A stretch of DNA of 64,000 nt from Gracilinema caldarium DSM 7334 (GTDB lineage: Bacteria; Spirochaetota; Spirochaetia; Treponematales; Breznakiellaceae), in contig NC_015732.1 of NCBI RefSeq assembly GCF_000219725.1, positions 1,364,001-1,428,000 of the forward strand, written 5' to 3'. The notes beneath the pieces were generated by a model that saw only the letters and a program-made list of their open reading frames with translations, ran no database searches and was not told the DNA's origin. Every line of letters starts with the position of its first letter. Position 1 is the first letter of the stretch. Position numbers and translations under genes: made by a program. Positions 30,387 through 38,923 of this stretch are shown piece after piece.

Positions 30387-31409
30387 ATGAAAAAAATAAT
30401 GATGCCTGTTTTGTTTTTATTGATTTTACATAACGTTTTCGCTTCGGAATGGTATCGATCAGATTCTGGTGGCATTGCTCTGGAATCGCTTTCTTCTGTT
30501 CTTGCTTTGCGTGAGGAATATGCGCTTGAAGTAACCACGTGCGACGCTCTTAATTTACCCGATATTCTTAATAATCTTGAAAAGAATGCAGGCAGCATTG
30601 TTGCAGAATACCTCTATCATAAGAAACAAATTATTATGCGCCGTTATAAACTCTATGATGGTCAGAAAAAGTTACGATTAGTCTCCCAGTTTACAGCTCA
30701 GGGTTTTGTTTGGATCGAACGATATGACAGTAAACGACGGCTTTATGAAGAATATTGGTCTCTTGATGCATCTACATGGTATAAAAAGGTGTATCTTTTT
30801 AATAGAGAGAGGCCTACAACAACTCGAACCTATGTTGGTAATTTTAATAGGGATTGGTTGCTTTTATCTACTGATATATATCAATATGATCGGACAGGTT
30901 TTCTTCGCACTATTGAACGAAATATTCGGTCGAAAGATGTTGAATCTAATAGTACCGAGTGGTTTTCTAAAGATGTTCCATCCCTTTCTACTGTAAACAA
31001 ACCCGGTCCTGGTAGTTCTGGAATTTCGTCAAATTCGTCTACAGATAGAGAAACAAGCATTCTCTATAGTTTGGATGTTCAAGGTCGGGTTATCCGAGAA
31101 CAACATAAAAACAAAGATGGAATAATAGTATACGAGAAGATTAATACCTGGGAGAAGGATAGGGTGAGTTCTGTTCTTATTACAGAAAACGGAAAAATAA
31201 CAAAAGTTGAATATACCTATGATAACCAGGGTAACCGTAGTAGTGAAAAATATTATTATGGATCAGAATTAGTTCGGCAAATTTTTATACAGGGTAAAAA
31301 AGAAACAGAAGAGCTGTATGACAAGGGGGAGCTTCTTTTACGGACCATCTGGGTTGATGGTGTCAAACAATCAGAATACCGGCCTAGCCGTCCTATACTA
31401 CAACCGTAA
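30387..31409 (+). CDS. Exported protein with antigen-like/Rhs-like strand repeats, unknown
   Basis: 340 residues, 7 bases after ftsY. Signal peptide about 1-19 (ends NVFA). The body has short repeated strand pairs such as YDSKRRLYEEYW, YSLDVQGRVIREQHKNKDG and YTYDNQGNRSSEKYYYG, which look like YD-repeat/MORN-type beta-hairpin modules. A Ser/Gly-rich linker lies at about 205-225. Probably periplasmic or surface. No named family. It precedes the lol-type genes by 28 bases and may share their transcript. Confidence 0.6.
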   Translation: MKKIMMPVLFLLILHNVFASEWYRSDSGGIALESLSSVLALREEYALEVTTCDALNLPDILNNLEKNAGSIVAEYLYHKKQIIMRRYKLYDGQKKLRLVSQFTAQGFVWIERYDSKRRLYEEYWSLDASTWYKKVYLFNRERPTTTRTYVGNFNRDWLLLSTDIYQYDRTGFLRTIERNIRSKDVESNSTEWFSKDVPSLSTVNKPGPGSSGISSNSSTDRETSILYSLDVQGRVIREQHKNKDGIIVYEKINTWEKDRVSSVLITENGKITKVEYTYDNQGNRSSEKYYYGSELVRQIFIQGKKETEELYDKGELLLRTIWVDGVKQSEYRPSRPILQP

Positions 31410-31437
31410 TTGTAGTATGTATAAAAAGGAATTACTT

Positions 31438-32748
31438 ATGGGTAAATATCGATGGATTCGTTTTATTGCATTTCGTTATCTAGCTCGTTCTAGAAAAGGA
31501 CGGCAATCTTCGGCTTCTATATCCAGTCGATTCGCTATACTGGGGATAGCTATCGGTGTTTTTGCACTTATTATGGTTATTGGTATTATGAATGGATTTC
31601 AGATGGGTTTTGTAGAAAGTATTCTTGAAATTTCTTCCTTTCATCTTCGGATCGAAACACCTGTAGATACACCAATTCCCTCATTGAAGGGTAATGCTAT
31701 CAGATCTTCTCTCCCATTTACTGAGTTTCAAGCCCTTGTACGAGGAAATCGAAAAAAACAACAAGTGACCTTAATTAGGGGCGTCCCAGCTTCAATTAAT
31801 GAACAAGACCCTGCTATGATACAAGCGCTGCATCTACAGAATGGTTCTTTTACAGTGACCGAACCGTCTTCTATTATAATAGGTGCAGAACTTGCCCGTA
31901 GTTTAGATCTACATGTAGGAGACTCAATTTCAGTAGCATCCATTGCGGGAGATCTTTTTTCAGAAACCAGACCAGAATTAGATACTTTCATTGTTATGGG
32001 TATCTTTCGTTCTAATTTTTATGAATTCGATGCTTCCTGGGCATTCATCAATCTAGATAGAGCCTTGGCTTTACAAGATGGTGCAGGAAAGATACAACTT
32101 GGTATTAAGCTTGTAGACCGATGGCAGGATCAAACAGTGATACATGATGTAATAACACAGAATTCATCATTACATGGTAAGATCAGTTCCTGGAGAGACT
32201 ATAATAGATCCTTTTTTAGCGCCCTGCGAACTGAAAAATTAATTATGTTTTTTTTAGTTGCTCTTATTTTTGTTGTAGTTGCGCTTAATATTTATCAAGC
32301 TCAACGAAAAACGGTATTAGAAAGACGTGAGGAAATTGGTCTTTTACGTGCCCTGGGTGCTTCGGTGCAGGGGATACAAACTATTTTTATAACCGAGGGC
32401 CTCGTAGTTGGTTTTGCTGGGGCAACCGTAGGTTTAGTTCCTGCACTATGGTTTGCTGGTAATACTGCTTTCTTTTTTTCACTGCTTGAAGGATTTGTAA
32501 ATGCTATTCTGAATTTGGTAAATTCCTTTCTTGGAATTTTATTTCATATACCAGTTCAGGAAGGTAGGGCTTTTGCTTTTTTCTCACCTCAGATTTTTTA
32601 TATAAAAGATATTCCATGTAAGCTTGTGCCCTATGAGGTGCTCATTATCTATGGATTTGGCATTTTATCTGCCACCCTTGCAGCAGTATGGGCTGCATTA
32701 CCATTGAGTAAGTTATTCCCTGCGGAGGTACTGCGGTATGATCAATAA
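31438..32748 (+). CDS. lolC: LolC/LolE-family ABC permease, first copy
   Basis: 436 residues from ATG 31438, chosen for AAAGGA upstream; the open frame extends further but overlaps the previous gene out of family context. One N-terminal helix (about 32-52), a large periplasmic MacB-type domain and three C-terminal helices (about 265-290, 315-350, 405-430) with ERREEIGLLRALGAS before the second. Together with the ATPase and second permease it should form a LolCDE-type complex that takes lipoproteins from the inner membrane. Overlaps the ATPase gene by 11 bases. Confidence 0.8.
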   Translation: MGKYRWIRFIAFRYLARSRKGRQSSASISSRFAILGIAIGVFALIMVIGIMNGFQMGFVESILEISSFHLRIETPVDTPIPSLKGNAIRSSLPFTEFQALVRGNRKKQQVTLIRGVPASINEQDPAMIQALHLQNGSFTVTEPSSIIIGAELARSLDLHVGDSISVASIAGDLFSETRPELDTFIVMGIFRSNFYEFDASWAFINLDRALALQDGAGKIQLGIKLVDRWQDQTVIHDVITQNSSLHGKISSWRDYNRSFFSALRTEKLIMFFLVALIFVVVALNIYQAQRKTVLERREEIGLLRALGASVQGIQTIFITEGLVVGFAGATVGLVPALWFAGNTAFFFSLLEGFVNAILNLVNSFLGILFHIPVQEGRAFAFFSPQIFYIKDIPCKLVPYEVLIIYGFGILSATLAAVWAALPLSKLFPAEVLRYDQ

Positions 32749-33463
32749 TGAAGTTTTTCAGGAATCTAATCCAGCCCTTGCAATTCGGGACGTGTATAAA
32801 TCCTATATTTCAGGGTCTGAAACCTTGACAATTCTCAAATCTGTAACTTTTTCTGTACCCACCGGTGTAAGTGTTGCAATCACTGGAGAGAGCGGCAGCG
32901 GGAAAAGCACCTTACTTAATATTATCGGTGGACTTGACCGGGCGGATGCTGGTTCAGTGCGGGTTGGTACGTTTCACCTCGATCAGTTGTCTGAAACGCA
33001 GCTGAATGAATATCGGGGACTCCATGTAGGGTTTATTTTTCAATTTCATTATCTATTAAAAGATTTTACTGCCCTTGAAAATGTGTATCTTCCCGCATAT
33101 ATGGCAGGTGTTTCTAAAAAGGACGCTATAGAAAAGGCTCGGTTGCTTTTGACTGATGTGGGGATGGAACATCGGCTCCAGCATTATCCTAGCCAATTAT
33201 CTGGTGGAGAACGTCAGCGAGTGGCTGTAGCCCGAGCTCTCATAAATAATCCCGATGTTATTTTAGCCGATGAACCTACAGGGAATCTAGATCGCTCAAA
33301 CAGTCAAATTGTTGCGGATCTTCTCTTTATGAATGCAGAAAAATACCATAAAACGTTGCTAGTAGTTACCCATGATGACAGCATCGCCCAGCGGGCTAGT
33401 ATACAGTATAGGTTAAATGCCGGTATTCTCGAAGGGTATACATATTCTGGAGCTACCCTATGA
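32738..33463 (+). CDS. lolD: LolD-like ABC transporter ATPase
   Basis: 241 residues, GGAGG upstream. Walker [18 protein letters not shown]-loop FQFHYLLKDFTALENV, signature LSGGERQRVAVARAL, Walker B VILADEPTGNLD and switch His in TLLVVTHDD. The length and the FTALENVYLP segment fit the LolD/MacB subfamily. It drives the two flanking permeases. It overlaps both neighbours, so stoichiometry is likely coupled. Confidence 0.9.
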   Translation: MINNEVFQESNPALAIRDVYKSYISGSETLTILKSVTFSVPTGVSVAITGESGSGKSTLLNIIGGLDRADAGSVRVGTFHLDQLSETQLNEYRGLHVGFIFQFHYLLKDFTALENVYLPAYMAGVSKKDAIEKARLLLTDVGMEHRLQHYPSQLSGGERQRVAVARALINNPDVILADEPTGNLDRSNSQIVADLLFMNAEKYHKTLLVVTHDDSIAQRASIQYRLNAGILEGYTYSGATL

Positions 33464-34728
33464 AACAACGGGTTCGGTTTTTCATCGCTCTTCGATACCT
33501 TTTAAGTCCCTCGCCTGAGGGTGATCGTTATCTGAGAGGTGCTGCTCTGGGAATCGCAATTAGTATGGTACCGATTATGATTACCCTTATTGTTTCTGAT
33601 GGTATGATTCAGGGCATCACCAATCGCTACTTAGAATTAAGCACAGGGCACCTGCAGCTCTATTCTTACTTGGCCGGTGCTGATGAAGTTGCTTTACTTA
33701 TGCCAAAATTACAAGGGATACCAGGAATTCGTATGGTAAGCCCTGAACGGGATGGTATGGGTATTCTTATTGGGCCCAAAGGAAAAACAGGTACATCCTT
33801 ACGTTCAGTTGCAGCATCTTTTTTAAATTATGAAGGGACAAAACAATATCTTTCTGTTCTTTCAGGAGATTTACAGCTTCCTGATTCCCGAAGCTGTCTT
33901 CTTGGTACTAAAGCAGCAGACGCTATAGGTGCCAAACCTGGGGATACGATCCGGCTCATGACGGTACGAACCACTGATACTGGTACTATGATTCCCCGTA
34001 TTACACCATTAAGAGTTAACGGTATTATTTCTTCTGGATATCGTGAACTGGACGCCCTTTGGTGCTTTATACCCTATGATTTAGGAAGAACTATTTTAGC
34101 ATCTGATACCTCAAGGTCTTTTCTTGTGATTAAAACTGATAATCCCTATAAGGGGCTTGAAAAAATTCAAAAATTGATACAGGAACAACTGGGAGATGTG
34201 GTTGGAATATATAGTTGGAAAGAATTACAGGCTACCCAATTTCAATCCTTTGAATCTACCCGGCAAATATTACTGTTTATTATGGCGATTATTGTATTAG
34301 TCGCCGCAGTCAATGTTGCCTCTGCGACTTCCATGCTGGTGGTAGAACGACGTAGGGAAATTGCCATATTAAAATCCTATGGAGCTCGTCCAGGTGATAT
34401 TGCAGGACTCTTTGCCTTCGGAGCAGGACTTACCGGACTAGTAGGAGCTTTTGTTGGGATCGCTGTAGGGCTTGGCATCGGGTATACTATTAATGAGATT
34501 ATTCATGGATTGGAAATAGTTCTTTCTTGTATATCTAGCCTTTTTCATGGAAACCCAGTGGTCCTGTTGAATCCAGCCTATTATCTTGAACGTATACCAA
34601 TTATTATTAATTGGTCTGTAGTTGCATTATTATTTTGTTTAACCGTTGTTGGTTCGATCATTGCAGCTCTAGGTAGTACTCTTAGGGCAGGCAAATTATC
34701 ACCAGTAGAAATACTGCAAAAATTCTAG
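33460..34728 (+). CDS. lolE: LolC/LolE-family ABC permease, second copy
   Basis: 422 residues, ATGA overlap with the ATPase gene. One N-terminal helix (about 25-48), periplasmic domain, and three C-terminal helices (about 268-290, 318-350, 385-410), with VVERRREIAILKSYGARPGD near the second. Same layout as the first permease but divergent in the periplasmic part. Likely partner in the lipoprotein-release complex. Confidence 0.82.
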   Translation: MKQRVRFFIALRYLLSPSPEGDRYLRGAALGIAISMVPIMITLIVSDGMIQGITNRYLELSTGHLQLYSYLAGADEVALLMPKLQGIPGIRMVSPERDGMGILIGPKGKTGTSLRSVAASFLNYEGTKQYLSVLSGDLQLPDSRSCLLGTKAADAIGAKPGDTIRLMTVRTTDTGTMIPRITPLRVNGIISSGYRELDALWCFIPYDLGRTILASDTSRSFLVIKTDNPYKGLEKIQKLIQEQLGDVVGIYSWKELQATQFQSFESTRQILLFIMAIIVLVAAVNVASATSMLVVERRREIAILKSYGARPGDIAGLFAFGAGLTGLVGAFVGIAVGLGIGYTINEIIHGLEIVLSCISSLFHGNPVVLLNPAYYLERIPIIINWSVVALLFCLTVVGSIIAALGSTLRAGKLSPVEILQKF

Positions 34729-34739
34729 GGATACAACAT

Positions 34740-35279
34740 ATGCTATGTGATATATGCGGGAAGCGAGAAGCAATAGTTTTTATTCATCAAGTTGGAATAG
34801 GAGAAAATAGAGAGCTGCATCTCTGTTCTCAATGTGCTTATGAACATGGACTTCAGCATCTAGAAGGTGATGTTGGAAAAGCCCTTATTGAGTTATTAAA
34901 AAAAATCCCGATAGATAACACCCCGTTGTCAGAATCTATTGAAACAAAAGGATCAATGCAGTCGGGGAAACAGAAAAAAAAATACCCAGATCGTTGTCCT
35001 GTTTGCGGGAACACGATTCAGGATATTAAAAAGACTGACCTTGCGGGCTGTGAAACATGTTGGGAACTTTATGGTGAATTGTTATTAAGTTCTATCAAAA
35101 GACAACGGTCAGGAGTACCATATCATGGCCGTTTTTCTGTCAAACTTTCTAAAAGCATGACTTTAAAAATGGAGCTGGAGTATCTTAAACAACTTTTACA
35201 GACCGCTGTCGCCATGGAAGATTATGAACAGGCCGCTATATACCGGGATAAAATTCGATTACTTGAGCAGGGAGTATAA
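34740..35279 (+). CDS. mcsA: McsA-like zinc-finger/UVR protein
   Basis: 179 residues. Four CxxC pairs: CDIC and CSQC near the N-terminus, CPVC and CETC at about 88-113, fitting two zinc sites. A C-terminal UVR motif (LEYLKQLLQTAVAMEDYEQA) resembles the ClpC linker and UvrB/UvrC. In Firmicutes McsA activates the arginine kinase McsB and feeds ClpCP. Here the McsB-like and clpC genes follow directly, so the link is strong by context. It begins 11 bases after the second lol permease. Confidence 0.88.
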   Translation: MLCDICGKREAIVFIHQVGIGENRELHLCSQCAYEHGLQHLEGDVGKALIELLKKIPIDNTPLSESIETKGSMQSGKQKKKYPDRCPVCGNTIQDIKKTDLAGCETCWELYGELLLSSIKRQRSGVPYHGRFSVKLSKSMTLKMELEYLKQLLQTAVAMEDYEQAAIYRDKIRLLEQGV

Positions 35280-35283
35280 GCCT

Positions 35284-36375
35284 GTGAATACTACTTATCT
35301 TGACCCTTGGTTCTGGTTTAATGATAATCCTGATCTGGATTGTGTGGTTTATTGCAGACTTGGATTATATAGAGCTCTTTCGGGAGAACTGTTTCCTCAT
35401 CGTTGTTCCAATGAGGATTTGGAAAGAATTCAAAATAAGATCATCCTGATCCTCAATGAGCTTATCGGTAATAAACTGTTACTTATTACATCAGAAAACC
35501 TAGGCGATAGCCTTACTTCTGCCCAAGAAATATTTGATGATTCAGACCTCATCTTATTACAAAATGGACAAACGCTTGTTCTCGGTCCAAAAGGTATGCT
35601 TTTTCTTATCAACAAAAATTCCCATGTGTTTTTTTCACAGATAGGACCAGGATTTCTGGCTCTAGATTCTTTTCAAGAATTGCTCACTCTGGATGAAACT
35701 CTTGATACAGAACTCACCTGGGCTTGCTCAGAAACCTATGGATTTCTAAATCCAGATCCCATCCATACCGGCAGTGGATTAGAATGTAGGGCTCTACTAT
35801 TCATGCCGGGAACCATAGAAAGTGGTATGTTTGAACGGGCGGTGAAAAGCTTAATATCTCAGGGTTTTGAATTATCACTCTATCAAGGCGAACAATCAGC
35901 AGAAGATTCGGCCCGGACAGAAACCTCTTTTCCCCTGGTCTATCTTCGCTATTCAGTCTCTCCAGGTATGTCTGAACAAGATGGTCTTGAACAGATACGC
36001 AATGCTTTGAATGGCCTTATTAAGGGAGAACGGGCTACACGGGAGCGATTAGTGCAAAAGCTTTCCGATGAAATTCTCGATAAAGCAAACCGAGCATTCG
36101 GGATTCTGACCCACGCTCATCTCCTTTCAAGGGATGAATGTCGGAAACTACTTTTAGACCTTCGTAAAGGTCTTGTCTATAACTGTATTTCATTTCAGGG
36201 CAATCAAGGACTCCTCGCTGATATTGACCGCTTATGGTTTTCGACCGAAACTTTAGTACGACAACGTCTGGCGATAGTACCAGAACAACAGATAACCGAT
36301 AATTATGTACAAAGCCTCCGGGCAAAACTTGTCCGGAGCGTGCTTTCGCAGTACCATATAGAGAGGGGGATGTAG
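35284..36375 (+). CDS. McsB-like phosphagen-kinase-fold protein, active site degenerate
   Basis: 363 residues from GTG 35284, the usual McsB length, with GGGAG upstream. It lines up with B. subtilis McsB as I recall it: VVYCRLGLYRAL for SSRIRLARN, NPDPIHTGSG for CPTNVGTG, RAFGILTHAHLLSRDECRKL for the YGVLSN region. The acidic NEED motif is NKNSH (110-114), the CPxN loop has D158 and H161 in place of Cys and Asn, and the middle Arg of the first box is Gly27. Phosphoryl transfer to arginine is therefore doubtful. It may serve as an adaptor for ClpC. Adjacent genes: mcsA 4 bases before, clpC 1 base after. Confidence 0.75.
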   Translation: MNTTYLDPWFWFNDNPDLDCVVYCRLGLYRALSGELFPHRCSNEDLERIQNKIILILNELIGNKLLLITSENLGDSLTSAQEIFDDSDLILLQNGQTLVLGPKGMLFLINKNSHVFFSQIGPGFLALDSFQELLTLDETLDTELTWACSETYGFLNPDPIHTGSGLECRALLFMPGTIESGMFERAVKSLISQGFELSLYQGEQSAEDSARTETSFPLVYLRYSVSPGMSEQDGLEQIRNALNGLIKGERATRERLVQKLSDEILDKANRAFGILTHAHLLSRDECRKLLLDLRKGLVYNCISFQGNQGLLADIDRLWFSTETLVRQRLAIVPEQQITDNYVQSLRAKLVRSVLSQYHIERGM

Positions 36376-36376
36376 T

Positions 36377-38923
36377 TTGTTTAAAGGTCTTACCCAACGG
36401 GCACAACGAATACTTACCGTAATAGCCCAGGATGAAGCTCGACGTTTTCATAGCGATCAGCTTCTTCCTGAACATATACTTGTTGCTGTGATTAGGGACG
36501 GATCTGGTACAGCCTGCAGAGCTTTGGAAGATTTAGCCATAGATTTGCAGGATTTCCGTCATGTTTTAGAACGGGAAATTCCGCAAAAGACCGGTACCTT
36601 TATTTTCGGGGATGTACCGCCTTCCCGCCGGGCTCGAACCTTACTCGAAGCTGCCGCTGAGGAAGCCCGCAGTTTTGGTCATGAATATGTAGGTACTGAA
36701 CATTTATTGCTCGCGTCCATAAGAGAGGAGAATTCTCCTGCAGCACGGTATTTAGTGGAAAAACATATTAGCCCAGAAATGCTTCGTTCCACAGTGCAAC
36801 TCGTACTTGGGCAGATTCGGGATGATGGTCCTGTTGAAGACCCCCGGGATAGCGCCCATACGGCCGGTTCAAATCCTTTCGGGACAGGAACACCAAGCGG
36901 GCAAAAGAACACCCGGACGCCCATTATCGATGAATTTTCCCGGGACCTTACGGCCATGGCCCGGCTTGGTTCCTTGGATCCCGTCATTGGCCGTGAAAAG
37001 GAGGTTCGCCGGGTAGTACGGATTCTTGCCCGACGAACTAAGAATAATCCGATCCTTGTAGGCGAACCTGGTGTGGGCAAAACCGCCGTAGTCGAAGCCC
37101 TGGCCCAGCTTATTGCATCTGAAAATGTTCCAGAAATATTAGCGGATAAACGACTCCTTGCCCTCGACCTAGCCTCGGTAGTGGCCGGAACAAAATACCG
37201 CGGCGAGTTTGAGGAACGGCTCAAAAAAATCATGAAGGAAATCAGTCAGGCGGGAAATATCATCCTCTTTATTGATGAAATTCATACGGTTATCGGTGCC
37301 GGTGGTGCGGAAGGTACTATCGATGCCTCTAACATGCTCAAGCCCGCCCTTTCCCGGGGAGAAGTTCAGTGTATTGGCGCTACAACCCTCGCTGAATATC
37401 GGAAGCACTTTGAAAAGGATGCGGCTCTCGAACGGCGTTTCCAGATGGTACCCGTAGAAGAGCCAAGTCTTGAAGAAACTATACAGATTCTTAAAGGAAT
37501 CAAGAAACGCTACGAGGAACATCACCGTGTTATCTATAATGATGGAGCAGTTTTAGCGGCGGCAACCCTGGCCCAGCGCTATATCACCGGCCGGTTCATG
37601 CCCGATAAGGCGATTGATCTTTTGGATGAAGCTGGGGCGAAACGAAAACTCGAAACCGATATCAAGCCCGCCGAATTAAGTGAAATAGAAAACGAAATTA
37701 AACGGCTTACGGAAGAAAAGGTTCGCCTTGTGGCCGCCCAGGACTATGAAAAGGCTGCAGAACTGAGGGACCAAGTCCGGTCCCTCAGGTACCAGCTCGA
37801 ATCGGTAAAACAGGCCTGGGAACGTCTTTCCCGGGAAGAACGGCCTGCAGTTACCGAAGCTGACATACGTCAGGTTGTTGCGGAAGCCACAGGAATCCCC
37901 CTGGCACGGCTCGAAGAAAGTGCATCCCGTAAACTGTTACGGATCGAAGAAGAACTGCACCGTTCGGTTATAGGACAGGACGATGCGGTTCAGCGGATTG
38001 CTGCGGCCATCCGGCGCAGCAGGGCAGGGGTATCTTCTCTCAAACGCCCCCAGGGGTCATTTATATTCTTAGGGCCCACCGGGGTCGGTAAAACCCTTTT
38101 GGCAAAACGCCTTGCGGAGTATCTTTTTGGAACCGAAGAAGCCCTGGTTCGCATAGATATGTCTGACTATATGGAAAAACACAATGCCTCCCGTCTTGTT
38201 GGAGCTCCCCCCGGCTATGTAGGGTATGAAGAAGGCGGGGTGCTTACAGAAAAAATCCGTCGAAATCCCTATCGGGTTATCCTTTTTGATGAAATAGAGA
38301 AAGCCCACCATGATGTCTTTAATCTTTTGTTACAGGTTTTGGAAGAGGGGGAACTCAAGGATAATCTGGGGCATACGGTAAGTTTCCGGAATACGGTCAT
38401 CATTATGACGAGCAATGCAGGGGCCCGTGAAATTTCCCGAGATGCTCGCCTTGGATTTAACCCCGATTCGGGCATTATGAACCTGGAAGAAATCCGCTCA
38501 GCCGCCCTGGCAGAACTTAAGCGTCTCTTTAACCCTGAATTCATTAATCGGGTTGATGATATTGTCGTGTTCCATGCCTTGAGCCGCGAACAGGTTCAGG
38601 CAATCCTGGCCCTTGAAATTCAGGAATTGAATAAACGGCTCCATGACCAGGGGTACTCGATTCAGGTTAAACAGAGTGCCCAGGATATTTTAATAGAAAA
38701 GGGCTGGGATCCCAAATATGGCGCCCGTCCCATGCGCCGGGCTATCCAAAAAGAATTAGAGGATGTCCTGGCCGTGTTAATTCTTGAACAGGAATATCCC
38801 GCTGGAACAATATTTATAGCCGAAGACCGGGATGGAAAAATCAGCATCAAATCAAAAAAGAATAAGCCGACCCTGCTAACCACGGTTCCGGCTGTTTCCT
38901 CAGAACCGATTAGCAAATCCTAG
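36377..38923 (+). CDS. clpC: ClpC ATPase, Clp protease unfoldase
   Basis: 848 residues from TTG 36377. N-terminal Clp-N double repeat (about 5-145), first AAA+ with Walker [17 protein letters not shown], a middle region with a UVR motif ([15 protein letters not shown]), second AAA+ with [18 protein letters not shown] and the ClpP-docking loop RLGFNPD. It unfolds substrates for ClpP. The UVR-bearing M-domain marks ClpC, matching its place behind mcsA and mcsB-like genes. No CIRCE element or CtsR gene is seen nearby, unlike the Firmicute operon. GGAGG-type site overlaps the mcsB-like stop. Confidence 0.94.

Follow-up and report, generated by a model that had tools for sequence, protein, structure and literature searches.

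In Bacillus subtilis, translational coupling leads to strong binding of McsB to ClpC, which holds McsB inactive, and the action of McsB is controlled by the binding and release of McsA (PMC5506225). The adaptor function of B. subtilis McsB is reported to need its kinase activity (Kirstein 2007, in the account given by PMC5506225), and for this reason the kinase and adaptor roles are hard to separate in that organism. In Staphylococcus aureus McsB, the catalytic residue is Cys157, and the loop Y147-Y153 is contacted by the McsA zinc finger (PMC12467219). On the side of ClpC, the phosphoarginine-binding sites of the N-domain also hold the resting state (PMC12583610).

The window, a stretch of 64,000 nucleotides from Gracilinema caldarium DSM 7334 (NC_015732.1, positions 1,364,001 to 1,428,000), carries the mcsA-mcsB-clpC gene order of the Bacillota, and three genes form the locus.

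34740 to 35279, forward strand: mcsA, activator homologue of 179 amino acids (NCBIfam McsA NF053706, E 3.2e-26).
35284 to 36375, forward strand: mcsB homologue with degenerate active site (PF00217, NCBIfam and PDB McsB matches; model compared with 6FH1).
36377 to 38923, forward strand: clpC, ClpC-type AAA+ unfoldase (Pfam Clp_N, AAA, AAA_2, ClpB_D2-small, UVR).

The mcsB homologue is an intact open reading frame of 363 amino acids with a GTG start, made credible by the congeners, in which the ATG or GTG start codon of McsB falls on this residue. The mcsA gene ends 4 nt ahead of this start, the sequence GGGAG lies 9 nt upstream (35270-35274), and clpC starts with TTG at 1 nt past the mcsB stop. 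The mcsA product includes two CxxC...CxxC zinc-finger pairs (as its translation shows) and, at the C-terminus, a UVR motif (Pfam UVR, E 2.5e-6), and the clpC product includes Clp_N repeats and a UVR motif within the middle domain (Pfam). A LolC/LolD/LolE-like ABC transporter set (31318-34728) is located directly upstream of mcsA. No CIRCE element was found within the window, and promoter and terminator scanning gave signals not above those in shuffled sequences. In the complete G. caldarium genome (one contig), the window mcsB is the only PF00217 gene; direct scanning of genome contigs with window McsB as the query gave no match.

Membership of the protein in the McsB family was indicated by matches to Pfam PF00217 (E 1.9e-6), to McsB in PDB (E 4e-19), and to the NCBIfam arginine kinase (E 4.9e-26), for which the score was 91.6 bits against a cut-off of 385. 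A second NCBIfam equivalog gave 81.8 bits, the equivalog cut-offs being 385 or 500. Since neither cut-off was reached by any spirochaete genome searched, the kinase-type ones included, the NCBIfam cut-off alone is not discriminating. The structure predicted from the window protein together with Bacillota sequences (pLDDT 73, pTM 0.75; residues 63-97 poorly modelled) gave only McsB as top matches in Foldseek, and on comparison with McsB 6FH1 (VIA Z 27.5, rmsd 3.2, 321 residues aligned, model range 2-360) both the phosphotransferase domain and the dimerisation domain were present. As judged from this model, the window protein is a full-length McsB fold and belongs to the McsB fold family and operon module. 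It thus resembles McsB of the Bacillota (B. subtilis, G. stearothermophilus and S. aureus; PDB 6TV6, 6FH1 and 8GQD) in the whole fold, dimerisation domain included, but shares only about 20-24% identity with it.

The active site was examined in a full-length alignment of 80 Bacillota McsB and 129 spirochaete homologues. A total of nine positions (five phosphate-binding Arg, the general-base Glu and the next Asp, the catalytic Cys, and a second acidic residue) were assigned by homology from arginine kinase, of the phosphagen-kinase fold, and are taken here to be the catalytic positions of McsB. The corresponding segments of the window protein, with the loop that is aligned with S. aureus Y147-Y153, are as follows (reference residues in B. 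subtilis numbering unless stated).

35356 to 35364, forward strand: R25-L26-G27, the McsB RxR pair (R29/R31), second Arg lost (alignments).
35611 to 35625, forward strand: N110-K-N-S-H114, equivalent of NEEDH, general-base Glu (E121) and Asp lost, His kept.
35629 to 35631, forward strand: F116 at R125 (the HIR Arg), lost (alignments).
35725 to 35745, forward strand: C148-F154 (CSETYGF), equivalent of the S. aureus McsB loop Y147-Y153 (alignment).
35755 to 35766, forward strand: D158-P-I-H161, equivalent of CPTN, catalytic Cys167 lost (alignments).
35782 to 35784, forward strand: E167 at R176 (the GLRAS Arg), lost (alignment).
35875 to 35877, forward strand: S198 at R207 (the VRG Arg), lost (alignments).

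All nine residues are found in 80 of 80 Bacillota McsB, so that the motif loss in window McsB is not by chance; members of the window genus keep one or two. Window McsB retains two of nine, Arg29 and a Glu aligned with position 212, where the congeners have Asp or Lys. The five ATP-phosphate-binding Arg (R29, R31, R125, R176, R207) read R, G, F, E and S, and four of the five are also gone in the congeners. The Glu at R176 and the D-P-x-H in place of the catalytic motif, with Asp at C167, are shared by all four genus members. The genus also lacks Arg337, the phosphoarginine receptor (alignment), and no shifted replacement Arg or acidic residue is conserved across its four aligned members. Unlike McsB of the Bacillota, the window protein is therefore devoid of the catalytic Cys, the general-base Glu, four of the five phosphate-binding Arg and Arg337. 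By its sequence it is placed outside the McsB kinases, the residues that define them having been looked for and found missing.

The initial annotation had described a protein matching McsB in length and overall pattern, in which NEED was replaced by NKNSH, the CPTN loop by DPIH and one of the clustered Arg by Gly. The family matches and the fold agree with the general assignment, and DPIH stands as described. The loss of NEED was also confirmed, although NKNSH covers the His next to NEED as well, and the Gly is the second Arg of the RxR pair (SSRIR to YCRLG), the first being kept. The listed losses hold, but the damage extends beyond them, including the changes of HIR to HVF (NKNSHVF for the NEEDHxR region), GLRAS to GLECR and VRG to LSL. 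Two checks that it had proposed, alignment with McsB of Firmicutes and spirochaetes and structure modelling, were both in its favour: the losses were upheld with no shifted conserved Arg or acidic residues in the genus, and the McsB fold was recovered over both domains.

The spread of the loss was followed in 77 McsB homologues of the class (family codes f1-f22) by an alignment-free motif count, which ruled out that the motifs only seemed missing through misalignment. CP[ST]N was found in none of the 77, versus 80 of 80 Bacillota McsB and 21 of 28 kinase-type relatives in the phylum (26 of 28 by a looser pattern in the kinase-type families of other Spirochaetota classes), and N[ED]EDH in one of the 77, versus 80 of 80 and 27 of 28. 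The nearest kinase-type relatives, McsB of other Spirochaetota classes (f28, f33, f39, f47, f55, f57), are encoded in the same operon and keep NEEDHxR and nearly always CP[ST]N, whereas the window class has neither. The supposition that this was an oddity of a single gene thus proved wrong. The degree of decay differs within the class. In many members of f3, both RxR Arg (R29, R31), the HxR Arg (R125) and the Asp are still present and Lys stands at R176; the f1, f4 and f5 homologues are decayed further. Most f3 loci were chosen for their high rank by score, which biases the f3 sample to the less decayed ones. For these many f3 members, the loss of nucleotide binding or weak activity would be less sure than it is for the window genus.

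Mean retention in the class was 0.35 for catalytic columns versus 0.64 for other family-invariant columns, defined as those invariant in the Bacillota and the kinase-type relatives (permutation p 0.011), and in the window genus 0.14 versus 0.56 (p 0.033); the retained columns in the genus include His123, the loop glycines, Glu251, Arg255 and Arg341. As catalytic columns were lost more and structural columns kept, the McsB homologue sheds catalysis but keeps its frame. In a tree made without the catalytic columns, 49 class members, all degenerate, formed one branch (SH-aLRT 96; long branches with unsure deep order, and the class members G436, G389 and G535 are outside the 49-row clade). A single loss of the McsB active site in the class is likely. 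Degenerate homologues are also found in other classes (f23, f25, f30, f36, f45, f48 and f53 among others), and further, separate losses probably occurred there. As far as motifs and alignment indicate, active-site loss is an old, class-wide condition and not peculiar to the window gene.

The window mcsB is under purifying selection. Its reading frame is open in all four genus members, and dN/dS was 0.126 for G001-G003, the sole pair with unsaturated dS, and 0.23-0.27 for the other pairs, compared with 0.10-0.14 for mcsA (where computable) and 0.03 for clpC. The mcsB gene evolves faster than mcsA and clpC in the genus, with 51-57% identity versus 92-94% for clpC, and because its evolution is so much faster than that of clpC, the constraint is moderate. 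The proposals of the initial annotation that the gene is intact, packed tightly between mcsA and clpC (gaps of 4 nt and 1 nt) and under selection (genus dN/dS 0.13-0.27) are all borne out. With catalytic residues lost and purifying selection on its gene, the window protein counts as a pseudokinase, a possibility raised there; the retained fold, the missing active site, the selection, the kept operon and the lack of shifted residues together support this part well.

Linkage to the neighbouring genes was also conserved. Among the 77 class loci, mcsA is directly upstream in 75, clpC downstream in 73, and both are in place in 72. In a set of 59 relatives (G039 and G044 included), mcsA and mcsB were both present in 22 and both missing in 37, and never occurred apart (Fisher p 1e-16, a value that ignores kinship); a ClpC-type match was obtained in all 59, in some only ClpB-like. 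Within the window family, 29 of 36 genomes have neither gene. In one genome without mcsAB (L164), lolE adjoins clpC directly, and in a complete genome of 1.1 Mb of the same order (G045), ClpC-type genes are present and neither mcsA nor mcsB was found. Furthermore, McsA and McsB with a degenerate active site are fused into a single open reading frame in G041, G055, G084 and G091 (f4) and G419 (f9), probably in G070 (f5), and in G088 and G130 (f4), where the fusion was recognised by the UVR part only; fusion is thus seen in two or three lineages. The natural fusions of G055 (L022) and G041 (L018) are good subjects for structure work. Separate from these degenerate fusions are open reading frames of about 310-390 residues in f50 and f26 (L107 of G426, L105 of G470, L110 of G360, L109 of G398, L112 of G305), in which one McsA-type zinc finger is joined to the McsB phosphotransferase domain; they keep GDEDHxR and CPTN, apparently lack the dimerisation domain, and are located mostly just upstream of clpC.

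The Gly of the McsA-contact loop, invariant in Bacillota McsB, is likewise found in 77 of 77 class members, and the Cys five residues past it is lost in all aligned class rows but one. McsA with at least one CxxC-CxxC pair was found in 67 of 76 class members read. Other parts of the system were uninformative. The equivalents of the ClpC N-domain phosphoarginine-site residues Glu32 and Glu106 are kept in window ClpC, but they are kept alike in kinase-type, pseudokinase-type and McsB-less genomes and thus tell nothing of McsB function. The sole LMWPTP hit in the genome, outside the window (G000:C1:2973194-2973580, L280), is of the arsenate-reductase type (P-loop CTGNSCRSQMAEG) and not of the YwlE type (P-loop CxGNTCR); the lack of a YwlE-type phosphatase is, however, not discriminating, because those hits that were read in kinase-type relatives also belong to the arsenate-reductase type. 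In contrast to the Bacillota system, CtsR is absent from 198 Spirochaetota genomes, and hence there is no retained CtsR target.

These observations altogether make it likely that the protein is an old McsB-family pseudokinase forming the structural half of an McsA-McsB complex that acts on ClpC with no arginine phosphorylation involved. That it serves as an adaptor bridging McsA and ClpC, as also put forward in the initial annotation, we infer from synteny, gene fusion and co-loss. Judging from its residues, window McsB would be unable to phosphorylate arginine. It may form a stoichiometric complex with McsA, the McsA zinc finger docking on the retained loop that precedes the position of the lost Cys, and the complex could act on the neighbouring ClpC by handing over damaged proteins, or alternatively by holding ClpC in, or releasing it from, the resting state, in either case with no phosphoarginine tag. 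Kinase-type McsB unites ClpC binding and tagging in one protein; window McsB would have dropped tagging and kept binding. By analogy with B. subtilis, the McsB-ClpC and McsA-McsB interactions could outlast the loss of catalysis. A protein touching the N-domain sites could switch ClpC without phosphate, an idea with which the kept sites are only compatible, because they are also kept in McsB-less relatives. The main point against a kinase-free adaptor is the reported dependence of the B. subtilis adaptor role on kinase activity, in the review's account (PMC5506225).

Some features of the genus pocket could be read as a rebuilt rather than an abandoned active site. The genus conserves new polar residues there, Asp at C167, His at N170 and Glu at R176, in addition to His123 and Arg29. 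Unusual chemistry is known from further kinase folds in which the canonical residues are missing. The alternative of the initial annotation, an active kinase (or another phosphotransferase) whose site is re-routed through other residues, such as NPDP[I/H]H-x-GSG-[L/M]E, for arginine phosphorylation or different chemistry, is nevertheless unlikely: four of the five phosphate-binding Arg are gone; across the four genus members, the phosphotransferase domain has invariant Arg only at positions 29, 34, 44 and 194, of which the last three are not at lost sites; the congeners do not share Arg178 of the window protein; and the new motif is confined to the genus, except that two f5 genomes have part of it (PDP). 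It is also rather improbable that this motif with His123 and Arg29 was rebuilt in the genus for a new ligand, or for chemistry other than arginine phosphorylation, by which McsA-McsB would be switched on ClpC. The retained fold and pocket residues (Arg29, His123 and the GxG-loop glycines) would also suit a kinase-dead sensor, in which the old pocket binds nucleotide, phosphoarginine or another ligand and reports to McsA and ClpC. Such a sensor would fall within the pseudokinase reading as a special case, and we give it a small chance, since the Arg337 receptor is not kept in the genus, most phosphate ligands are gone and no candidate ligand is at hand.

Very little weight is given to the reading that the gene is decaying towards loss and is held for now by its operon position alone. 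The fast evolution of mcsB relative to mcsA and clpC, and the absence of mcsA and mcsB from 29 of 36 family genomes, with lolE beside clpC in one, would fit such decay. The frame, however, is open in four of four genus members under the dN/dS given above, degenerate mcsB is intact throughout the whole class, in-frame fusion to mcsA is found in several lineages, and losses always take both genes.

The pseudokinase with a role in the McsA-McsB complex is comparable to the bacterial Ser/Thr Hanks-type pseudokinases (families reviewed in PMC12599244) in that catalytic residues are lost while the gene is conserved, but differs from them in fold. Searches for McsB with pseudokinase, spirochaetes, Treponema or Leptospira retrieved no report of a degenerate McsB, most subscription journals lying outside the search, and the literature searched gave no comparable pseudokinase of the phosphagen-kinase fold. 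Genes of treponemes and their relatives are probably misannotated as 'protein arginine kinase', and ideas of phosphoarginine tagging should not be transferred to them unchecked. A class that keeps McsA, McsB and ClpC without the kinase site provides a case in which kinase and adaptor roles are separated naturally, and makes it directly testable whether McsA-McsB can steer ClpC without a phosphoarginine tag.
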